NCBI GenBank assembly: GCA_026416585.1
Contig: JAOAEV010000080.1
Span: forward strand, 1 to 33,530
Source: Chlorobiota bacterium
Lineage (GTDB): Bacteria > Bacteroidota > Ignavibacteria > Kapaibacteriales > NICIL-2
DNA: 33,530 nucleotides
Reading direction: 5' to 3'
The translations under genes and the position numbers were made by a program. This document shows positions 1,176 through 14,271 of this stretch, one piece after another (position 1 is the first letter of the stretch; every line of letters starts with the position of its first letter). Under the pieces are notes generated by a model that worked only from the letters and a program-made list of their open reading frames with translations, did not search any database and was not told where the DNA came from.

Positions 1176-4100
1176 TTATTGACCCAGCTTGCGTTGGACT
1201 TCTGTGATGCGATAGGTTTCGATGATATCGCCCTCAGTGTAGTCGTTGAATCCGCTAATGGTTAGACCGCATTCGTAGCCTTGCCGTACTTCACGGACGT
1301 CGTCTTTAAGATGCTTGAGAGATTGAATCGTTCCTTTGTAAATCTCGAAGCCGTCGCGGATGACGCGTGCCTTATCGTTTCGAGTGACTGTACCCGACAT
1401 AATGTAGCATCCAGCAACGGTACCAACTTTACTAATGCGGAAGACTTGCCGTACTTCCGCTCGACCAGTGACTTCTTCTTTGATCTCTGGTGAAAGCATG
1501 CCCTCGAGCGCGAGTTGAATTTCATTGATCGCATCGTAAATGATCGAATAGAGTCGAACATCTACGCTTTCACGTTCGGCGACTTTACGGACAGATGCTG
1601 GTAGCTGCACTTGGAAACCGACAACAATCGCCTCAGAGGCAGCAGCAAGCATAACGTCGCTTTCGGTAATAGCACCAACAGCGCGGTGAATGATCGAGAT
1701 TGTTACCTCATCAGTACTGAGCTTTTGCAGTGAGTCGGTAAGTGCTTCGAGCGAGCCACTGACGTCAGCTTTAAGAACAATACGAAGCTCCTTGATGCCG
1801 CCGTGCTGCATACGTTTGGAGATTTCATCCAGTGAGACGCGCTTGACTTGGCGTAGCTGCTGCTCACGCCGAAGAATCTGACGTTGCTGGGCGATCTGGC
1901 GAAGCTTATCTTCGTCGTGCGAAACAACAAGCTTATCGCCTGCCTCGGGTAAACCTTCGAATCCTGTCACTTGCACCGGGGTTGATGGAGGCGCTTCCTC
2001 GACGCGATGTCCACGCTCGTCGTACATGGCACGCACACGACCGAAGTATTGACCGCAGATAAATGTGTCCCCCTGCCGGAGGGTACCGCTTTGTACTAAC
2101 ACTGTGGCAACATTACCACGACCCTTATCAACGTGTGCTTCAATAACGGTGCCGAGCGCCGTGCGGTTGGGATTGGCTTTTAAGTCGAGAAGCTCAGCGT
2201 CGAGCAGAATCTTCTCGAGCAATATATCAACGTTGATACCTTTCTTTGCAGAGATCTCGGCACATTGGTATTTACCGCCCCATTCCTCGACCAAAACACC
2301 ATGGTCAGCTAATTGTTGTTTGATACGGTCTGGATTAGCGGTGTCCTTATCAATCTTGTTGATTGCGACGACAATAGGTACTCCAGCTGCTTGTGCATGG
2401 CTGATTGCCTCGATAGTTTGAGGCATGACGCTGTCATCGGCTGCAACAACGAGGACGACGATATCGGTGACTTGCGCACCGCGTGCGCGCATTGCCGTAA
2501 ATGCCTCGTGACCCGGAGTGTCAAGAAAGGTAATAGACTTACCATTGGGCAAAATGACTTTATATGCGCCGATGTGTTGAGTAATGCCTCCGGCTTCTCC
2601 GGCGACAATGCTTGAGCTTCGGATGTAGTCGAGCAGCGATGTTTTTCCGTGGTCAACATGCCCCATGATCGTGACAATCGGTGGGCGAGGTACAAGCGAC
2701 TCCGACGGGTCAGCGAGAGTTTCTTCCTCGAGCGTTATCTCTTTATCGGTCAAAAATTCAACAGTTACGCCATAGTCACTGGCTATCAATTGGATTGTAT
2801 CGCGGTCGAGACGTTGATTGATGCTGACCATCAAACCAAGCGCGAAGCATTTGCTGATGATTTCAGCAGGGGAGACGCCAAGAAAGTTTGCTAATTCAGC
2901 AGTCGTCACGAACTCTGTGATACGCAGCACACCGTGTTCCTGCTGTAGTTGCTCGAGACGGCGTTGTTGGCGCTCTTCACGCTGTTGCTTTTTCTGTTTC
3001 TTGATTCTGCTTCTGATGCGTGCCTCTTCTTCGATACCGGCAAGAGTTTCTCGAATCGCGCGCTCGACCTCTTCTTCAGCAATCAATTCGCGTATCGGTT
3101 TCCGCTTTTTCTGTGCCTTGTCGTCTGTTGCGAAGAATGCATCTTTGGTAGTAAGCTTTTTGTCTTTGGTCTTTAGTGCACCGCTGCTTGTCGTTGCAAG
3201 AATAGGGGTAGGGAGTTGTTCTTGTGGTTGTTCTTCTCGTTTTGTTGAATGCTGTTTCTCTTTATCTTTTACCCTGCTTGGACGAACATTGCGCTTTTGC
3301 GGTTCGGATAGCTTTTCGGGTTTCTCTAGTTTCTTTGCCCCACGTTTGCTGCGGCGTGGTTCTTCAACAGGGAGCTCAATCTTTCCAACGACTGTCAGTC
3401 CGCGCAGTTTCCATGATGTTGACGGCGTGTCGGGCTCGGATGTTACGAGGATGTTCGATACTCTCCGCCGTCGCTTGGGGTCGGGAGCGTCTTCACTTTG
3501 TTCGAGGGTAGGTTGTTGCTCGACGGTTTCTTCGACGGGGGCTTCCGCGATGATATCCGAGGGCAATGGTTTGACTTCAGTGCTTTCAGGGCTGACGGAG
3601 GATGATGTATCAGCAAGATCCGCTGTTGTCATCGTGACATCCGGTTCTTCTGAAGAAACGGATTCTTCGACAGACACCGATGTTGATACTATAGGTTCAG
3701 TTGAATCAATTACAGCCGATTCAGGTTCTTCACTTATTGTTGTCTCAATACGCTGAGATTCGACTGGAACAGCAGTAAGCTGCTCAACATCCAGAGGAAC
3801 GGCTACAGAGGATGGTTGCTGCTCTGCGAACGTAGGTTCAAGGATTGTTTGTTCGGCTTCGACTGTTGATAACTCTTCTATTGATACTTCAGCTGGTGGG
3901 GAAGTGGTCTCGTGGGATTCTTCTGGGGGGGCTTCGATACCAGTTTGACGAACCTCTTCTGATTCGGTCTCAGACGGCGCGACGGTTTTCTTCTTGACCG
4001 ACTGTTGATGGGTTCGTTCAAACTGCTCGATTTTCGAGCGGACACGCTCCGCATGTTTTGCTTCTTTCGCAAAATGCCCTGTGACAGCGTCGAGCATTTC

Positions 4101-4235
4101 GTCGGTAAGCTCGAAGCTGGGCTTGTTACTGATTTGGAATCCTTTAGCAGTTAAGTATTCAACAATCTCTTCTTTCGAGATATTGAAATACTTAGCGACC
4201 TTAAAAAGTTTTTTTTCAGGAATATTCTGGGACAT
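1176..4235 (-). CDS. infB: Translation initiation factor IF-2, with a long charged low-complexity N-terminal region
   Basis: G-domain motifs IMGHVDHGKTSLLDYIR, DTPGHEAFTAMRARGA, NKIDK; C-terminal IF2 domains; after nusA. Confidence 0.98.
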   Translation of the reverse strand: MSQNIPEKKLFKVAKYFNISKEEIVEYLTAKGFQISNKPSFELTDEMLDAVTGHFAKEAKHAERVRSKIEQFERTHQQSVKKKTVAPSETESEEVRQTGIEAPPEESHETTSPPAEVSIEELSTVEAEQTILEPTFAEQQPSSVAVPLDVEQLTAVPVESQRIETTISEEPESAVIDSTEPIVSTSVSVEESVSSEEPDVTMTTADLADTSSSVSPESTEVKPLPSDIIAEAPVEETVEQQPTLEQSEDAPDPKRRRRVSNILVTSEPDTPSTSWKLRGLTVVGKIELPVEEPRRSKRGAKKLEKPEKLSEPQKRNVRPSRVKDKEKQHSTKREEQPQEQLPTPILATTSSGALKTKDKKLTTKDAFFATDDKAQKKRKPIRELIAEEEVERAIRETLAGIEEEARIRSRIKKQKKQQREERQQRRLEQLQQEHGVLRITEFVTTAELANFLGVSPAEIISKCFALGLMVSINQRLDRDTIQLIASDYGVTVEFLTDKEITLEEETLADPSESLVPRPPIVTIMGHVDHGKTSLLDYIRSSSIVAGEAGGITQHIGAYKVILPNGKSITFLDTPGHEAFTAMRARGAQVTDIVVLVVAADDSVMPQTIEAISHAQAAGVPIVVAINKIDKDTANPDRIKQQLADHGVLVEEWGGKYQCAEISAKKGINVDILLEKILLDAELLDLKANPNRTALGTVIEAHVDKGRGNVATVLVQSGTLRQGDTFICGQYFGRVRAMYDERGHRVEEAPPSTPVQVTGFEGLPEAGDKLVVSHDEDKLRQIAQQRQILRREQQLRQVKRVSLDEISKRMQHGGIKELRIVLKADVSGSLEALTDSLQKLSTDEVTISIIHRAVGAITESDVMLAAASEAIVVGFQVQLPASVRKVAERESVDVRLYSIIYDAINEIQLALEGMLSPEIKEEVTGRAEVRQVFRISKVGTVAGCYIMSGTVTRNDKARVIRDGFEIYKGTIQSLKHLKDDVREVRQGYECGLTISGFNDYTEGDIIETYRITEVQRKLGQ

Positions 4236-4284: not shown

Positions 4285-5754
4285 TCAGTCTTTGTCGGGT
4301 TCTGGTGACGATGATGTATCCTCTGTAGTGAGATCTTCATCATCGTCGAGCTCATCATAGGTTTCCGTCTCGTACTCACTGAACATTTCTTCGATTTCTT
4401 CTCCAATGTCAGCTGGAGAGGCTTGTTGTGATTCCTCAAGTTGAGCATGTGCAATAGCGACGCGTTCGCGGATATCCGGCAGTTCTTGTTCGTTGAATTC
4501 ATCGAGAATGAGCTTGCGAATTGCGAGCAATTTTTCCGGTGTCATTTTCGGAATCTGGAGAAGTTGCTTCAAATCTGCTTCGAGGAATTCGCGAGCTGTG
4601 TCGATATGTGCTTCGATGATTTGCTCGTAGAGTTCTCGACCGATGTCGTCTCGGAATTCGATCAGTTCGATGTCTTCACTCCCTTCCTTGACGAGGGTCA
4701 AGGTATATCCTGTCAGTCGCGATGCAAGTCGCACATTCTGCCCATTCCGTCCGATAGCTAATGACACCTGGTCATCGGGGACCACAACAACTGCTGTTTT
4801 GTTGTCGGTATTAACTTGAATTTGACGAACTTTTGCTGGTGAAAGCGCCCGTGCGATAAAGACCACAGGATCGTCGCTCCACTCGATAACATCAATGGTT
4901 TCACCGGCGACTTCGCGAACAATTGCATTGATCCGAATTCCTTTCATTCCGATGCATGCACCAACAGGATCAACACGCTCATCGTAGCTGGTAACAGCAA
5001 CTTTAGCACGCTCCCCTGGTTCTCGTGCAATAGCTTTGATTTCAACGATCCCATCGAAGACCTCCGGAATTTCGATTTCGAAAAGCCGCTGAAGGAATCG
5101 TTCATCGGCACGAGATACAATGATATCGGGATTACTTGTTGGTGTGGAGCGGCGTACTTCCTTCACAATTGCGCGAATCGTTGCATTCTTTTTGTAGCGC
5201 TCGGTTGGAATCTGTTCTTCGACAGGCATTCGCACTTCGTGTTTGTTGTGTAGGATAAGGATGTCATTGCGCCGTATTTGATAAATCTCACCGACGATGA
5301 TTTCGCCAATTTTTTCTTCGTACTCTAAGAAGATGTTGTTTTTCTCGATGTCGCGCAGCTGTTGGCTGAGAATTTGTTTGGCGTACATGATCAACTGTCG
5401 CCCAAACTCTTTGCTGATATTGTCCAGTGAAATTTCTTCGATGTATTCGTCACCAACCTCGTATTCTTCGTCTGTTCGGCGCTGTACCTCGCTGAACGAA
5501 ATTTCCTTGGCAGGGTTAAGAACATAATTGACGACTGTTCGCGGTAAGTAAATTTCGATGTCGCCACGATCCATGTTGACGATAATATCAGGTTCCGCAT
5601 CCTCTCCATACTTTTTCCGGACAAGCATCCGTAGCATGTCTTCGAACTTTCCTTGTATCAGATCGCGGTCAATTCCACGTTCTTTGGCTATTTCGACAAA
5701 AGCCGCAATGATTGCTTTCTTATCAACTTTGCTTTGCGTTTTTTTCCGTGGCAT
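4285..5754 (-). CDS. nusA: Transcription termination/antitermination factor NusA
   Basis: N-terminal NusA domain, S1 region, and KH domains (GACIGMKGIRINAIVREVAGETIDVIEWSDDP; SLAIGRNGQNVRLASRLTGY). Confidence 0.97.
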   Translation of the reverse strand: MPRKKTQSKVDKKAIIAAFVEIAKERGIDRDLIQGKFEDMLRMLVRKKYGEDAEPDIIVNMDRGDIEIYLPRTVVNYVLNPAKEISFSEVQRRTDEEYEVGDEYIEEISLDNISKEFGRQLIMYAKQILSQQLRDIEKNNIFLEYEEKIGEIIVGEIYQIRRNDILILHNKHEVRMPVEEQIPTERYKKNATIRAIVKEVRRSTPTSNPDIIVSRADERFLQRLFEIEIPEVFDGIVEIKAIAREPGERAKVAVTSYDERVDPVGACIGMKGIRINAIVREVAGETIDVIEWSDDPVVFIARALSPAKVRQIQVNTDNKTAVVVVPDDQVSLAIGRNGQNVRLASRLTGYTLTLVKEGSEDIELIEFRDDIGRELYEQIIEAHIDTAREFLEADLKQLLQIPKMTPEKLLAIRKLILDEFNEQELPDIRERVAIAHAQLEESQQASPADIGEEIEEMFSEYETETYDELDDDEDLTTEDTSSSPEPDKD

Positions 5755-5775: not shown

Positions 5776-6240
5776 TTACCACTCCAATTGAACAATAGCC
5801 GATGAAATCTGCACGAAGGGAATAGTTAATATATCGTGTTCAGTTTTGATTGTGATATGTTGAGCATCTGCCAATAGTAAGCGCCCGCCGACAATCGTAC
5901 CATCGATGAGGTGTACCGTGAGCAATCGCCCTGTGTGCTTAGGATACTGCCACCATTGTTGAAGTGGGCGGTCAACCCCAGGGGATGATACGTCAAGTCG
6001 TGCAATTGACTTAAATGGCGGATCTCTATCGAAGAGCAGCTCGATATCACCACTGATGCGCCGACAGAGGTCGTGTGTAACGCCGTCGCGATTGTCTATG
6101 TAGATTTCCAGAATTTGTGAATCGCTTCGTCCCCGAAGCGTATAGTCCAGTAGCTCGGCATCGTGCCGACGACATATCTGGCGTATGGTCTCAACCGTCG
6201 AATCCGGAAGTGTCCGGCTCGGTTTTCCTACTTTTGGCAT
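5776..6240 (-). CDS. rimP: Ribosome maturation factor RimP
   Basis: 154 aa, DISGDIELLF...YTLRGRSDSQILEIYIDNRDGVTHDLCRRIS...LDVSSPGVDRPL is RimP-like; directly upstream of nusA. Confidence 0.93.
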   Translation of the reverse strand: MPKVGKPSRTLPDSTVETIRQICRRHDAELLDYTLRGRSDSQILEIYIDNRDGVTHDLCRRISGDIELLFDRDPPFKSIARLDVSSPGVDRPLQQWWQYPKHTGRLLTVHLIDGTIVGGRLLLADAQHITIKTEHDILTIPFVQISSAIVQLEW

Positions 6241-6257
6241 GGACAGTCGTTAGCAAC

Positions 6258-6278
6258 AAAAAAAGGGCAGCAATGCCC
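6258..6278 (-). terminator. Intrinsic-terminator-like hairpin: GGGCA-TTGC-TGCCC followed by T7, just upstream of rimP
   Basis: Plus strand 'aaaaaaagggcagcaatgccc' (6258..6278); on the minus strand this is a 5-bp GC-rich stem, 4-nt loop and 7 T residues, ending 17 nt before the rimP ATG. Confidence 0.65.
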
Positions 6279-6303
6279 AGTCCACGGTTACTCGTCGCGG
6301 CTG

Positions 6304-6330
6304 CAAATATACGGAATACGCAGGTTTCAA
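6304..6330 (-). promoter_or_regulatory. Candidate promoter for the rimP-nusA-infB operon: TTG-N16-TATATTTG
   Basis: Plus strand CAAATATA (6304..6311) and CAA (6328..6330); the reverse complement matches the Bacteroidota TTG / TAnnTTTG arrangement. The -33 element overlaps the stop codon of the upstream secreted-protein gene. Confidence 0.5.
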
Positions 6331-9300
6331 TTATGAAAGATGATATTTGTCTTTATACCAATCCCCTCAGCGGTAAATACGATAAACAAGACACCAGATG
6401 GGAGGCTTGTCGTAGGAACAGGAAATGTGTAGGTGCCACGTTCGAGGTAACCATTATAAACGTTCCCGATGGTCCGTCCGGTTATATCGTAAATGGCGAT
6501 TGTGGCGGTCGAATTGACTATGTGTTCGATGATGATAAACAACGTCGTTTCATCATTCTTAGTAGTGATTTTGCTCGATGTACCGAGTGAGATCAAACGT
6601 TGGTCGAGGTTGCATTCCTGGGATAGTCGTAGCAAGCCAGGCACAACAGTCGCAACATGAATGTTCGTATCACTGCTGTGGATTGCGTCGCGGTCTGGCA
6701 GGATAGGTGTTTGGCGTGCGTCGCCGAGAAGGACCGTGCCATCGAGTATTCCGATAATTCCATCGCGTTCGATTCGTGCACCTCTGACGGTTATAAGACA
6801 GCCTGATGGTATGGGCTCGAGCACTATCGAGCCTGAGGAAAGCACGTCGCCTTTCGTGATGCTCTTTGGGAATAGCACTGTTCGGTCAAAGCGTAATGGT
6901 ATCACGAAAGAATCGAGCACGAATACCCGAGCGACATTTTCGCAGCGAATACTAAATCGGACTTGTTCGCCAGGAGATGCTGTGATCGATTCGGGTATAA
7001 CAAGTCGTAGTGCTAATGGCGTGGTATTGGTTGTATCCCGCCGAATTCCACGAGCGGTAATGACAATGACCAGTCGAGCAGCACACGGCTCGATTGCATC
7101 AAGCACAAGTGTGTGGTTGTAGTTCCCTTCACTGTTTGCGTTGATCGAGATCTGTCCTGCGACAGTCATACCCGGTGGGATGATACCACCGGGTGCATAG
7201 GGAAACTGAGCTTGAAGCCACGGTGGTAGAGATCCCATTGCCCCGAAGCGAATCGTATCGGTAGAGCTATTCTGCAACGTTGCTGTTGTGGTGTATGTTC
7301 CTGGAATTTCAATATCCCCTACATCAAGTCGAAGCGTATCGCTTCCACCGCTTTCGATAAAGCCAAGATGGAAATCATCAGCATGCACTGTTATTGGTAG
7401 TGTTAAAATGCGTCCACAGGGCTCAATGCGAACCGAAAGAGTTGCATTGTTATAACCGCTCACCAAGCGCTGAGGCAGAATTATGATCTCGAATGGATGA
7501 TTACCGTCAGTGTATTGATCAGTTTTGAGTGTCGCCGTAAGCCATGGTGCAGATGATGAGACGGAAGTAATCACTGTCGGCACAGTGTTGGCTGGTATGC
7601 TTGACATTGTGAAAACGACTTGTCGTGCGATCGGGAGGGTGTCGCGGCAACGGAGAATTCGTGGGATTGATATTGCTGGCACATCGAACGCTGCAAATGT
7701 CCCTGTACGCATACCGCGAATGAGGAGTACCTCGGACTGTACGCATCGTCCGTCACCAAAAAGGATGGTCAAACGTTGTTGTGCTGCTGTGTAGCCGTTT
7801 GGGCTGTACCTCAGTCGGATCGTCAGCGAATCACGTGGCGCTATACGAAGTGTCGGGGATGGGATTGGTTGAACAATTTGAAGCTGTTCATCAAAAAGCT
7901 GTTCAATCTCAACTGATGTAAGAGATGTGTTGTAGAGCGTGATTGTTGTGTCGGCGAAAATCGTCGAACACGAATCCAGTGATGAAAAAACGATCTCACG
8001 TGTCGCAAGAGCGATAAATGGCGTTGTCAGTGCACCACGAATGGGTATCACAAGCGAATCACGACATTGTGCTGATGTGTATCGTATGACCAAATCACGT
8101 GCATACGTTTGATCGAGTTGCGGAGAAAAAACAATTGGCAAAGCACGAGACTCTCCTGCCCGGAGAGAAAATGCCATCGATACGCTTGGATCCAGTTGAA
8201 ATGGCGCGTTGATGCTAATGCTCTCGACGGTGAGATCTCCACTTGCAGCGATGAATACGGTATCAGTCTTGGTGGAAACTGTTCCATTACACCGAGTGAG
8301 GACGCCGAAATCTTTCGATGAGGTAAGGGGAGTGAGCACCCCTGCAGCTCCACTTTTCGAACCACGTACATGAATCCATGCAATACGGCCGCACGGTTCG
8401 AATCGAATGCCAATGCTATCGTTCCATGTTCCCGTTGTTGATGGCGCAAAACGAAGTTGAAGCGTTCGGCGTTCGCCGTTTTTCAATTCGATCGGGAGTG
8501 CTGGAGATGCTAACATGAATGGAGAAGGTTCAATGACCGACGAAAGCACAACGGGGAATCCCGAACGATTTTCAATGGTCAGAGTTGTATCACGAACAGA
8601 CTCGCAGCCACTCAAAGCAGAAAATGTGAGTGCAGTCTGTGATAGTACGTACCGCACCTGTATGATTTCGACAGATGTTCCTGCAGAGCGAGTGGAGCAA
8701 CCATACTCATTGGTGATCTCGACTCTGTAGTTCCCAGCAGTATTAGCCACGTAGGATGCAAGCGTGGCACCGGTAATTGGAGCACCGTCCCGGTACCACT
8801 GATACCGCGATTGTTCAACAAGAGGAGCTTGCAGTAACTGTGTAGAATCTTCGCAGAGCTGCACAAGACCGGCAGGGAAAATTCGTGCCTCTGGGGCTGG
8901 ACGAACTATCACAACGATCGAATCGCTCAGAACGAAGCATCCATCTGGTCTTTGCAGTCGAATGCGATACTCGCCACTTTCTGTAGCACGGTATGCGCTA
9001 TTGTTTGCACCGGAGATTGCGGTGCCATTGCGAAGCCACTGGGCAGAGTATCCATTTGGTATAGCTGTGATGCTCAGGACAATCGACCCACCTTCGCAGA
9101 ATGTTGTCGGCGAACCGTCCGTACGAAGAGATGGTCCTGGTTCAACTTGTTTGATTACCGTTGCAGATGCGAACGATACTGCGTTGTATTGTCGTCCTCT
9201 TGTTGATTGAACTGGTGAATAATTTCCATACTCGTCGTCGCGACCATAGCGAAATGCAAACACACGGTACGTGTACGTAACGCCGCATGTGAGAACGACG

Positions 9301-10271
9301 GGATCTGCGTAGGATGTCGCAGTCGAAGGCAAGTGTGCCAAAACAGTTGCTGTCCCGATTCGTTCACCATTGCTATAGATGCGACCTTGTTCTGGGAGGA
9401 AACCTTGCGCACTGCTGTCGCGCACAATCATGAATCCTTGGACTCCATCCTGGGAATATGGATCGGTTGCGAGGTTCCAGGATAGTTGCACACTTGACGT
9501 CGAGGTATTTGCTACTAATCGTGGTGAGTCCCACAGGGGGCGGCGAAGTGCATGCCAGAACTCCCAATTTGATGCCGATGATGTACACGATTTGTTCGGC
9601 AGTGTCCGGGTGAGATTGACAGCGCAGGCTTCTGACAGTGAGGCGCCGTGTGGTCCATTGTACTGGCTGAGCATGGCGCCCGGAAATACACGATTGCTCT
9701 GCCCATTGTTGAGAGAGCTGGCGGTATTGAGTTTGGGTTCTGCCATCGTCAACCAATACGAACCCGGCGTTGCACGGTGACCAAGTCCGTGAACGTGATT
9801 GCCATTTGCATCGAGTATTTCCATGATGTCTCCCTCCTGTGCCAAATTCATCGGAGCATCAGGAAATTGCACATCCGGCGCTGCATACGCTTCAAAGAAT
9901 CGCATATCATTTTTTGCGAGCATGACGCGACCGTCAGCCATAGAAGTATCGAAGTCCTGGGGATTGCTCGAAATGTAATCGCGATGCCAAATGCCAATTA
10001 TGGTCCCAGCTCGAACATGCTGCCAATAGGGAATGTTGCGGAATTTTACACCTCCTTGGCGTGCTGTTTGTGTTGCGTTGTTATCTGTGACAATCCATCC
10101 ACGCAAATCAATGTTGTCTTGGATAACGAGGATTTCGGTCCATTCCTGGGGAGGATTATCGTTGTAGTACTCACTGACTACGACGGGTTGTGCTATGCTC
10201 GGTGCAGTCAGTGCACCAAGCGCAGCCAGAACACATACCAACGCGTTTCGGTGTTGAGTTAAGCGGTGCAT
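6327..10271 (-). CDS. Giant secreted/surface protein: lamin-tail-like N-terminus, Fn3-like and Ig-like domains, repeated ASH/choice-of-anchor-D-like modules, cohesin-like region, divergent type IX sorting-like C-terminus
   Basis: Signal peptide MHRLTQHRNALVCVLAALGALTAPSIAQ; VVSEYYNDNPPQEWTEI...LRGWIVTD (LTD-like); QWLRNGTAI/QWYRDGAPI Ig-like segments; repeated ...EPCGRI...V.G units; C-terminus IAIYDITGRTI...LPSGVLFIVF. Confidence 0.8.
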   Translation of the reverse strand: MHRLTQHRNALVCVLAALGALTAPSIAQPVVVSEYYNDNPPQEWTEILVIQDNIDLRGWIVTDNNATQTARQGGVKFRNIPYWQHVRAGTIIGIWHRDYISSNPQDFDTSMADGRVMLAKNDMRFFEAYAAPDVQFPDAPMNLAQEGDIMEILDANGNHVHGLGHRATPGSYWLTMAEPKLNTASSLNNGQSNRVFPGAMLSQYNGPHGASLSEACAVNLTRTLPNKSCTSSASNWEFWHALRRPLWDSPRLVANTSTSSVQLSWNLATDPYSQDGVQGFMIVRDSSAQGFLPEQGRIYSNGERIGTATVLAHLPSTATSYADPVVLTCGVTYTYRVFAFRYGRDDEYGNYSPVQSTRGRQYNAVSFASATVIKQVEPGPSLRTDGSPTTFCEGGSIVLSITAIPNGYSAQWLRNGTAISGANNSAYRATESGEYRIRLQRPDGCFVLSDSIVVIVRPAPEARIFPAGLVQLCEDSTQLLQAPLVEQSRYQWYRDGAPITGATLASYVANTAGNYRVEITNEYGCSTRSAGTSVEIIQVRYVLSQTALTFSALSGCESVRDTTLTIENRSGFPVVLSSVIEPSPFMLASPALPIELKNGERRTLQLRFAPSTTGTWNDSIGIRFEPCGRIAWIHVRGSKSGAAGVLTPLTSSKDFGVLTRCNGTVSTKTDTVFIAASGDLTVESISINAPFQLDPSVSMAFSLRAGESRALPIVFSPQLDQTYARDLVIRYTSAQCRDSLVIPIRGALTTPFIALATREIVFSSLDSCSTIFADTTITLYNTSLTSVEIEQLFDEQLQIVQPIPSPTLRIAPRDSLTIRLRYSPNGYTAAQQRLTILFGDGRCVQSEVLLIRGMRTGTFAAFDVPAISIPRILRCRDTLPIARQVVFTMSSIPANTVPTVITSVSSSAPWLTATLKTDQYTDGNHPFEIIILPQRLVSGYNNATLSVRIEPCGRILTLPITVHADDFHLGFIESGGSDTLRLDVGDIEIPGTYTTTATLQNSSTDTIRFGAMGSLPPWLQAQFPYAPGGIIPPGMTVAGQISINANSEGNYNHTLVLDAIEPCAARLVIVITARGIRRDTTNTTPLALRLVIPESITASPGEQVRFSIRCENVARVFVLDSFVIPLRFDRTVLFPKSITKGDVLSSGSIVLEPIPSGCLITVRGARIERDGIIGILDGTVLLGDARQTPILPDRDAIHSSDTNIHVATVVPGLLRLSQECNLDQRLISLGTSSKITTKNDETTLFIIIEHIVNSTATIAIYDITGRTIGNVYNGYLERGTYTFPVPTTSLPSGVLFIVFTAEGIGIKTNIIFHN

Positions 10272-10272
10272 G

Positions 10273-13200
10273 TTATCGCTGAATAACGAATTGACGCTGA
10301 ACGAAAGTAGAAGTACGGTAGATCAAGAGCCGATAAACACCACTAGGTAGAGAGCTAACGTCGAGACACACACGGTCACCTGCTATTGGTGCTGAAACAA
10401 TCTGCAGTTCAAGTAGTGTGCGTCCGAGGACATCGACCACTGCAATCCGTCGGACGTCATCTGCATGCGTTATTGTCAATGTCTCGCTCACCGGTTGTGG
10501 GTACAACTCTATTTGCGTTTTATCTAATACACTGACACTTGATATGACATCCACCCTCGCAACGTTTGACCGCGTGCTATCGCCACAGTGATTATATACC
10601 ACACACACGTATTGCCCACGGTTATTGATTGTGGCATTTGAAATGGTCAGAACAGGTCCACTTGCAATTGAATCTGGCAATGGTTCACCATCTTTGTACC
10701 AGCGATAACGAAGTTGCTCGCCAGGTGAACCTTGTGCCTCAATGCCTAATACAAGGGCTGTGCCTTCGAGAATTTGCACCTGTTCGCGAGGTTGGGTTGT
10801 GATGACCGGGGCCGGGTAGAAGGAAATTGCTGTCGGATTGGTATAGAATGAATCACATTCAGTAATGATAAAGAAACGCACTGAGGAGAGCGATCGATCG
10901 TAGTTAGTAATTCGAAGAGTAAGACTATCCGTTCTTCTTTCGAGAACAGGTGCACCATTTTGCTCAGCTCTGACGGTAGCCACTACAGAAAGCTTGATTG
11001 TGATGCTGATTGGATCGCCGAAGCAGTACGTACTGTCAGAAGTGCGATAAAGTACAGTAACCCGCTCGCGAAGTTGGAGCCGACGTGCTGGAGTCGTTCG
11101 CGTTTCCCCAGTAGATTCGTCGGTGATTCTGCAGGAGTATTCTCCAGCATCGTTCGTTGTGATGTCTGCGACGACAAGTTGCGAAGTCGTTGTCCCTCGG
11201 ATGCGAGCAGATTCTTGCAGTGGTGTACCGTTTCTTAGCCATTGATAGCGCAACTGTCCTTGAGTCGTGCTTCGGGCAGTGACAGAGAATGTAGCCGTTG
11301 CACCTTCGCAGAACTCAAGCGGCGAGGTGTCGAAAGTAAACTCAATACCTGTAAACCGAAGTGCACCCGTGTCGGACGTAACAGTGCCGCATTGTGTTGT
11401 TACGATGCAGTAGTAGGTGGCGCCATAGTCGGATTGCTGAACGTTCCGTATTGTTAGTGTTGCAGTTCGGCTGCCAGTAATGCGGTTATTGTCGAGCAAT
11501 GGCTGGGAGCCTCGATACCATTGATACGACGCGTGAGGATCGGTTATGCTGGTTTCGATTGAAAGCTGAGCAGTTTTACCTAAACCAGCATACACGGTGC
11601 CAGGATGCCGCGTAATCTCCAAACGAGGGCGTACAGCAATAGTTATAAAGTTGGAGGAATCATTCGAGCAGGTTCCACTTCCATAAATGCGGCACCGATA
11701 GATACCTGATGACCGAGCATTCACATAACTCAGGTGCAACTGATTCGTTGTCGCGCCAGCAAGTGGCTGACCGTCTTTTTCCCACTGGTATCGAAGATTT
11801 GTTCCTGATGCTAAAACAACAAGTGTAACGCTGTCGCCTTGACACAGAGATGTGTTGGGACTCTGCGCGATGACGCGCGGAGGCATGTTTAGTGTAAACG
11901 GACCTGTCACGGCGTACACATCGGAACGCGTGTTATCTATAACTCGCAGATATGTATTGCTCGACCCAGCCAGGTTCGCAGGGATGTCGAGTTGCAACGT
12001 TGATATTCCGGGAAGGATTCCACGAGCCACAATAAATGGGGGATCGTTGTCACGAATCAGCTCGACTCTGGCACTATCCACACCGCGAATAAATACCGTC
12101 ACGGCAAGAGGTCCACTCAAACAGAGTGATTGGCCTGCCAGCGATGTTCGCAATTCAATTCTTGGGGTGTGAATGCTTGTCGCATTGATCCCACTTGATG
12201 GGCTGCGTGTATCGGCTTGTCCCCAAATACCGTCGCTGTCGGTGAACACACGAAGGAGCGACCCTGTTTGCAAATCACGTACCTCGATGCGTCGGATTGC
12301 AGGGATTGAATTCGGTACAACGGTTGCGAACGCTCCAGCTAAGCTATCTACTGCTGCGTAGAAGGGCACGGCACTGGTTACAGTCGTTCCTTCATCTTGG
12401 ATGATTGCTGTGGCAACAGGGCGTGAATTGCCGGTGATATCGTCGTAAAGACATATAATACTCTTCGGCGATAGACCACTGGCAGAATCCACCATACCAG
12501 ATACTTTATTTGTGGCAGGTCCGAAGTATAGTGCTTTTGTCCCTTGAACGGTGACTATCCGCGTCTGTATTGCGCGATTGGAATCGAGTATCGTGATAAG
12601 CCAATACATTGTGTTGCCTTCAGTGAACCGCACGTTTGCGGTTGCCACAAGATTTACCCACAGCGTCATTGTTGTTTGCGCTGGACCTGTGCGGAATTCA
12701 GAATAGCCGCCGCTAACGCTAAAGTCGCGAGTTGCGGTATAATTGAACGTCTGGTTATTCGCGTTGTAGTGAAGATTATTACCTGCTCCAATCGTTGCCG
12801 TAACAAGCGAAACGGAGTCTGCACCAACGTAATAGCGATACGTCGTATTCGGTTGAAGGTTGCCAAGTCGAACTAATGCCCATACGGGAATTCGTGTCGA
12901 GGCATTCGATGAAAGCATGTACTGCGGAATGATCTGTTCGGTAACAGTTGGATGCGCAACGATAGTCAATGTATAGCTAACGCTTGTGATGTTGTTGGCT
13001 GTGAATGCAATCGTATAAGTACCTGGTGTAGCAAATGAAAGATTGTTGAAAAGAGCAACACCGTTGATGTGCATTGTGCTTGTAGTTCCTGATGGGGTTC
13101 CGGGTCCGCTTTGGATGACGATGTTACACTGGTATGGAAAGTGCGTGTCTATGCTACCATCAGATCTACGTGCAGTGACGGTGAATGCTGGTAGAATAAG

Positions 13201-14271
13201 TCCCGCAAATGCAAACTGCGAGAACGATTCGACTGTGAGTTGCGTAGCATTGGGTAACACTGTAAAGGGTGCGCTCACGCCATTTGATAGGTTGTCACCG
13301 GCAGTGCGTCGTACGCGGATTTGTACGTTTGATTCCGCGATACTGTAGGTGACTCCAGATACAGTGACAGAATTCGTTCCTGCGGGAATAGTGGCAGTCA
13401 GCGACCCACCAAGCGTGCCACTGCCGTTTGCTAACTCGAGGACAATGTTAGTATTCGATTGAACGTTCCGGGGTTGACCAAGATCGTTTTGTGCCTGGAT
13501 AGTAACGCTGAAAGGTGCTGTGCGCGATGGCGAAACGGGGGCGATGGTAGTGATTGCCAGCTTTGTTGGAATGCCAGTGCTCGCATCACTTTGAACGAGA
13601 ATGTCATCCACTTTAAGTTGTGGACGATTGCCCGAAGTTTGAGGATAACGCTGGTAGTATCGCCAGCGGAGTTGCACGACTGATTGGTTCTCGCATGAGG
13701 AAGGAAGAGTGAAGGTCGGCATCGTGACGGTTTCAGCAACAACACTTGTGCCTTGAATATTGGCATTGTACTGAACAGTATCGGGACCGATAATCGCTGT
13801 TTGCCATTGACCAGTCGTGCCGACGCGATATTGGAGCATGATGGAGTAGTACCGAAAGCCCGTAAATGTTGAGGCGAGTGTCCCTGCTTTCCAGGAAACA
13901 CGGATATTGACACGCCCCGTTGTATTGATTGCTAGAACGGCTGCACCGAGATTGCCAGGGCTTGATGTGTTCAAGAACGCAAAGCCATCAATACCTAAGC
14001 CGTTTATTCTTGTGCCACTAGTGCCGTTGTATGCACCGGTATAATCACCGATGACTTGGGCAGTATCAGGTTGAAGATTGTTGTCGGCGCGATTAAAGAT
14101 GTGAAACGCGACATTCGGTGGATATGTCCCAGCACTATTTGTTGGATCCCATGCTGCCAAAGAGTAATCACCAGAGCTGAGATTGTGTGGCGTTGGATTG
14201 CTTTGTGCGTGCAGCGAAGTCACTGCAATAAGCGCAAGAACACCACTCCACATCATGAAACGAGCCTTCAT
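10273..14271 (-). CDS. Giant secreted protein with multiple eukaryote-like Ig domains and a type IX-type C-terminal sorting domain
   Basis: Signal peptide MKARFMMWSGVLALIAVTSLHAQ; four segments with G-x-Y-x-C motifs (SGIYRCRI, GATYYCIV, AGEYSCRI, RGQYVCVV); C-terminus IELYPQPVSETLTI...VVDVLGRTLL...LPSGVYRLLIY. Confidence 0.82.
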   Translation of the reverse strand: MKARFMMWSGVLALIAVTSLHAQSNPTPHNLSSGDYSLAAWDPTNSAGTYPPNVAFHIFNRADNNLQPDTAQVIGDYTGAYNGTSGTRINGLGIDGFAFLNTSSPGNLGAAVLAINTTGRVNIRVSWKAGTLASTFTGFRYYSIMLQYRVGTTGQWQTAIIGPDTVQYNANIQGTSVVAETVTMPTFTLPSSCENQSVVQLRWRYYQRYPQTSGNRPQLKVDDILVQSDASTGIPTKLAITTIAPVSPSRTAPFSVTIQAQNDLGQPRNVQSNTNIVLELANGSGTLGGSLTATIPAGTNSVTVSGVTYSIAESNVQIRVRRTAGDNLSNGVSAPFTVLPNATQLTVESFSQFAFAGLILPAFTVTARRSDGSIDTHFPYQCNIVIQSGPGTPSGTTSTMHINGVALFNNLSFATPGTYTIAFTANNITSVSYTLTIVAHPTVTEQIIPQYMLSSNASTRIPVWALVRLGNLQPNTTYRYYVGADSVSLVTATIGAGNNLHYNANNQTFNYTATRDFSVSGGYSEFRTGPAQTTMTLWVNLVATANVRFTEGNTMYWLITILDSNRAIQTRIVTVQGTKALYFGPATNKVSGMVDSASGLSPKSIICLYDDITGNSRPVATAIIQDEGTTVTSAVPFYAAVDSLAGAFATVVPNSIPAIRRIEVRDLQTGSLLRVFTDSDGIWGQADTRSPSSGINATSIHTPRIELRTSLAGQSLCLSGPLAVTVFIRGVDSARVELIRDNDPPFIVARGILPGISTLQLDIPANLAGSSNTYLRVIDNTRSDVYAVTGPFTLNMPPRVIAQSPNTSLCQGDSVTLVVLASGTNLRYQWEKDGQPLAGATTNQLHLSYVNARSSGIYRCRIYGSGTCSNDSSNFITIAVRPRLEITRHPGTVYAGLGKTAQLSIETSITDPHASYQWYRGSQPLLDNNRITGSRTATLTIRNVQQSDYGATYYCIVTTQCGTVTSDTGALRFTGIEFTFDTSPLEFCEGATATFSVTARSTTQGQLRYQWLRNGTPLQESARIRGTTTSQLVVADITTNDAGEYSCRITDESTGETRTTPARRLQLRERVTVLYRTSDSTYCFGDPISITIKLSVVATVRAEQNGAPVLERRTDSLTLRITNYDRSLSSVRFFIITECDSFYTNPTAISFYPAPVITTQPREQVQILEGTALVLGIEAQGSPGEQLRYRWYKDGEPLPDSIASGPVLTISNATINNRGQYVCVVYNHCGDSTRSNVARVDVISSVSVLDKTQIELYPQPVSETLTITHADDVRRIAVVDVLGRTLLELQIVSAPIAGDRVCLDVSSLPSGVYRLLIYRTSTFVQRQFVIQR

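Follow-up and report, generated by a model that had tools for sequence, protein, structure and literature searches.

The closest described relative of the element reported here is the rimP-leader, a short premature terminator with a GGGc...gCCC core and a U stretch that lies before rimP-nusA-infB, 4-130 nt from the gene start and without an antiterminator, and for which NusA was the proposed regulator (Naville & Gautheret 2010, PMC2965389). It has been called the most ubiquitous attenuator in bacteria. Its sensor was left between NusA and RimP, and the published guess for the GGG/CCC core is recognition by the RNA-binding domains of NusA. Related operons show such feedback. According to 1985 papers, as cited in PMC2965389, NusA represses the rimP-nusA-infB operon in E. 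coli, and in B. subtilis nusA is autoregulated through NusA-stimulated intrinsic termination in its leader (Mondal 2016, as cited in PMC12288461), which at about 180 nt (as cited in PMC2965389) is longer than the one described below. In Streptococcus agalactiae, intrinsic termination 31 nt after the start of gbs0413-gbs0418 (rimP-nusA-infB) has been reported and NusA feedback proposed (PMC4448216). The control by NusA in B. subtilis was shown by experiment and the leader of S. agalactiae has RNA-seq support, whereas the leader described here, in a phylum distant from the latter, is known from sequence alone. The 2010 paper stresses Firmicutes and Gammaproteobacteria and does not mention Bacteroidetes in its main text. 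Our literature search returned no description of such a leader for Bacteroides or Bacteroidetes, nor of a hairpin retained before nusA after loss of rimP; a phylum-wide presence in Bacteroidota may already be contained in the species lists in the supplements of that paper.

We analysed a stretch of 33,530 nt from a Chlorobiota bacterium (the window), in which a rimP-nusA-infB operon is directly adjoined by a leader of the form TTG-N16-TATATTTG-N25-GGGCATTGCTGCCC-TTTTTTT-N17-ATG(rimP) on the minus strand. The letters and coordinates that a first-pass annotation had given for the promoter, the hairpin, the T7 tract, the rimP ATG and a competing pairing all proved exact on re-reading. Its placement of the hairpin between a candidate promoter and the operon was also borne out, the promoter being conserved in relatives. 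The features are as follows.

6330..6328, minus strand: TTG, a weak candidate -33 element that shares letters with the stop codon of the gene upstream
6311..6304, minus strand: TATATTTG, a -7 promoter element of Bacteroidota type, read directly from the sequence and almost invariant upstream of the hairpin in relatives
6284..6280 and 6244..6240, minus strand: TGGAC and GTCCA, which are able to pair
6278..6265, minus strand: hairpin GGGCA-TTGC-TGCCC (GGGCATTGCTGCCC) of rimP-leader type, with a GGGc...gCCC core
6264..6258, minus strand: T7 tract adjoining the hairpin, the tail of a putative intrinsic terminator, conserved in relatives
6240..6238, minus strand: rimP ATG, 17 nt 3' of the T7 tract
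6240..5776, minus strand: rimP coding sequence, 154 aa (PF02576, E 1.2e-11)
5754..4285, minus strand: nusA coding sequence, 489 aa, the proposed sensor and target of the feedback, with homologues found in relatives
4235..1176, minus strand: infB coding sequence, 1019 aa, downstream of nusA in the same operon

After infB there are rbfA-like and truB-like ORFs, named by eye from the sequence. Judging by gene order, nusA is probably transcribed together with the leader; the terminator would thus lie in a transcript carrying nusA, which comes after rimP in the window and is the first gene in one family of the same order (f3).

The window hairpin combines the GGGc...gCCC core with a T7 tract directly after the stem, 17 nt to the gene and the absence of a conserved antiterminator, and by these features we class it with the known rimP-leader kind. 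It departs from the rimP-leader as published in the nearly fixed, short distance at which it follows TAnnTTTG, and in being kept before nusA when rimP has been lost. E. coli K-12 carries ACTGGGC...GCCCTTTTTTT at the same place, with AACTGGGCTTTAGGCCCTTTTTTT immediately before rimP. The first-pass annotation had spoken of this lineage only, which is too narrow for a motif already described as the rimP-leader in 2010 and found in E. coli as well; the other half of that proposal, a short attenuator responding to NusA, is still the best reading. The distal hairpin of the gammaproteobacterial rimP leader in Rfam (RF01770) aligns almost letter for letter with the window (ACUGGGC...GCCCUUUUUUU, ending at 6258). 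We nevertheless rejected membership in RF01770 because the window scores 19.8 bits against a gathering threshold of 47. Unlike RF01770, the leader has neither a tandem upstream terminator nor an antiterminator.

The promoter is of Bacteroidota type, and a scan with the sigma-70 consensus did not have it among its matches. Because TATATTTG fits TAnnTTTG, the -7 element of Bacteroidota promoters, transcription would be expected to start near 6298 and a terminated RNA to be about 40 nt long. The TTG upstream of it, the candidate -33 element, is present as annotated but shows no clear conservation among genus relatives. When the hairpin is folded by itself, its energy is unexceptional (-8 kcal/mol, z about -1.3 to -1.4), and single-sequence folding cannot tell it from chance. 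The genome context can: the pattern GGGCN{3,12}GCCCN{0,2}TTTTT occurs at exactly one site in the 2.06-Mb genome (three rows listed for it are this one site with differing tail lengths), and the reversed hairpin-T pattern at none. Among 59 terminator-like sites in a 274-kb sample, made up of the window and 20 contig stretches of the same genome, only this site has TAnnTTTG at most 25 nt upstream. By these measures the arrangement is not a product of chance.

From the 99 genomes of the order, we extracted the DNA upstream of rimP in the 67 in which RimP was found and searched it for terminators with no assumption of a GGGC sequence, using dinucleotide shuffles as controls. A hairpin with a T tract at -6 kcal/mol or below was present in 59 of the 67 leaders (11% of shuffles), one of the 59 being a different, unrelated structure in a genome that has lost the motif (G081), and at -10 kcal/mol or below in 44 of the 67 (1.5% of shuffles). 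One genome scored without the hairpin, G021, carries it farther upstream. GGG follows TAnnTTTG at exactly 25 nt in the window and in each of its five genus relatives; the overall median of this spacing is 18 nt, with most values at 11-32 nt. The distance from hairpin to start codon, in contrast, ranges from about 20 to over 100 nt among relatives. The hairpin is absent from all six sampled genomes of family f5 (G011, G020, G027, G033, G038 and G043), in which rimP is present, and the element is therefore dispensable in that family. In most of the corresponding loci (L030, L013, L018, L020, L011 and L053) we observed a promoter-like element of TATTTTTG type, which makes the family a natural negative control.

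Across Bacteroidota we gathered 80 named loci by means of NusA, 78 of them with sufficient upstream DNA. A hairpin with a T tract at -10 kcal/mol or below stands in the expected place in 70 of the 78, compared with 1.5% of shuffles, five of the 78 loci being off-point or carrying something else: in Ignavibacteria bacterium RIFOXYC2_FULL_35_21 (L069) and UBA5771 (L072; GGGCAAAAGCC followed by T10) the hairpin is directly before nusA, in L070 no rimP ORF was seen before nusA, and the hairpin of L106 and L107 is a different one. The conservation of hairpin and T tract before rimP in relatives, on which the earlier proposal had been made to depend, thus holds across the order and the phylum. Typically, TAnnTTTG is followed after about 20-30 nt by GAGGGGAC...GTCCCCTC-TTTTT, as in Pedobacter, Flavobacteriaceae, Cytophagales and others. 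The arms read GAAGGGAAC...GTTCCCTTC in Chitinophagaceae, and both arms are changed in Psychroserpens and Arcticiflavibacter (GCGGAC...GTCCGC) and in Flavobacterium enshiense (GAGGCACGC...GCGTGCCTC). Pairs were counted by a folding-free anchored comparison, a MAFFT alignment having right-justified the arms and being useless for counting; the invariance of GGG/CCC in this comparison is set by its anchor. Arm changes outside the core preserve pairing: the flanking positions are paired far more frequently than after permutation of the 3' letters (for example 89% against 44% at +3 and 77% against 48% at -1), and none of 500 permutations reached the observed excess. A difference between two large groups accounts for part of this signal, from which independent events can therefore not be counted; within the order alone, +4 is the sole position beyond the permutations (77% against 41%).

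The element is specific to the operon throughout the order, and it follows nusA. The hairpin-T site is unique in its own genome, and a promoter-plus-hairpin pattern has 60 matches in the 99 genomes (3 for the reversed pattern), and by comparison of coordinates 51 of the 60 are directly before rimP (30) or nusA (21). All 21 matches before nusA belong to family f3. None of the 30 genomes searched in this family (completeness at least 91%) has a RimP (PF02576) over the cut-off, while 10 of 14 control genomes gave one in the same search. To judge by these 30 genomes, the whole family seems to be without this widespread ribosome maturation factor. NusA was found in 28 of them, and with two too near a contig edge 26 could be evaluated, of which 25 have a GGGC...GCCC hairpin with a T tract about 30-180 nt before nusA; the remaining one (G082) has a version of the hairpin with a displaced T tract. 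As the hairpin is kept before nusA where rimP is missing, the element is tied to nusA(-infB) and not to rimP, an association that would fit NusA feedback. We stress that in most f3 loci whose sequence extends far enough nusA is itself followed by infB, so that synteny cannot single out NusA over IF2 as the product under regulation.

These observations bear directly on what the hairpin may be for. That it merely terminates the upstream secreted-protein operon, with no role in the control of rimP-nusA, was the simpler alternative of the first-pass annotation, and within the genus its position is that of a normal terminator, 43-53 nt past the stop codon of a same-strand gene. Outside the genus the neighbours change: in 95 loci, the closest long ORFs upstream, some of them possibly spurious, fall into about 55 sequence clusters, with 44 reading in the direction of the operon and 46 against it, while hairpin, T tract and promoter stay. 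Because upstream genes switch both family and strand while the hairpin remains, and with a promoter upstream of the hairpin, this explanation is contradicted and we give it very little credence; in this genus the hairpin may also end the upstream transcript incidentally. Feedback by RimP in place of NusA was mentioned as possible by Naville & Gautheret (PMC2965389), and in most genomes the operon begins with rimP. With no recognizable RimP in any of the 30 f3 genomes, yet a hairpin before nusA in at least 25 of the 26 that could be evaluated, binding of the hairpin by RimP seems the most improbable of the explanations considered here.

A role after transcription, as a 5' stem-loop that stabilizes the mRNA or tunes translation, would suit a hairpin that begins about 20 nt from the putative 5' end, and a wider fold in the window takes in the rimP ATG. 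This wider fold is the pairing of TGGAC with GTCCA, which had been put forward as a competitor of the hairpin. The pairing does exist, but it surrounds the hairpin; since it encloses the terminator it cannot compete with it, and as it is also absent from all five genus relatives we rejected it as an antiterminator. The lack of conservation of this ATG-sequestering pairing, together with a T tract that is conserved while the distance to the start codon varies, renders post-transcriptional action improbable. A fixed premature terminator or hairpin pause, imposing a constant drop in operon output without regulation, deserves more weight, although we still regard it as unlikely. No conserved antiterminator, aptamer or other leader sequence was seen among relatives, in which the stretch between promoter and hairpin varies, and the RNA before the hairpin has room for only about 5-20 nt, which together exclude a classical antiterminator in practice, as a constant terminator would have it. 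The GGG/CCC core is, on the other hand, kept in primary sequence throughout the phylum and in E. coli, which exceeds what a constant terminator would need, and NusA feedback is seen in the related operons of E. coli and B. subtilis.

Given that the leader has neither room for nor conservation of an RNA antiterminator, a protein would most likely set the level of read-through. NusA stimulates intrinsic termination and pausing. It is the natural effector because of this activity, because it is encoded here and because of the precedents for its autoregulation elsewhere. We therefore consider it probable that the window carries a promoter-proximal, premature intrinsic terminator of rimP-leader type whose read-through is set most likely by NusA. 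RNA polymerase would start near 6298 and make about 20 nt before the GGGCA/TGCCC hairpin forms; at the T7 tract it would either release an RNA of about 40 nt or read on into rimP-nusA-infB. Since NusA stimulates pausing and termination at such hairpins, abundant NusA would increase both at this one and thereby lower the transcription of its own operon. With slightly less assurance, we hypothesize that the GGG/CCC hairpin serves the whole of Bacteroidota as a minimal, promoter-fixed device for NusA autoregulation and that its partner in evolution is nusA and not rimP. The motif, now extended across Bacteroidota, stays with nusA after the loss of rimP and so points to NusA as the sensor; if this is true, the rimP-less family is a natural experiment indicating which gene the "rimP-leader" serves. 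To our knowledge, little is known about termination control in Bacteroidota, and a leader as short as this one (about 40 nt) could offer a clean system in which to study NusA-dependent termination in the phylum.

Several further features of the loci were recorded. In the window, two large adjacent ORFs lie upstream of the leader on the minus strand (6327-10271 and 10273-14271; 1314 and 1332 aa); by eye both look secreted, and their C-terminal regions resemble type IX secretion sorting domains. In each of the six species of the genus, a homologue of the same gene precedes the hairpin. The T tract is interrupted in some genera (TTTTCGTTT), where termination may be weak unless assisted by a factor such as NusA; in genus g4 of family f2 (for example L035, L047, L054, L064 and L066) the interruption is alike in several species. 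The hairpin region is deleted in the leader of G081 (L056) and seems partly duplicated or rearranged in that of G067 (L057; ATGGGCTCAAATACTCCCCATTTTTGCGTCCCATTTTTTG). Among the named Bacteroidota loci, genes for tRNA-Gln (TTG anticodon) are found just upstream of the hairpin in L086 (998-1071), L097 (999-1070) and L123 (983-1056), where they apparently lie between promoter and hairpin, and L141 has two copies (461-533 and 667-739) farther upstream. A tRNA-Gln gene before the hairpin recalls metY, which is upstream of rimP in E. coli.
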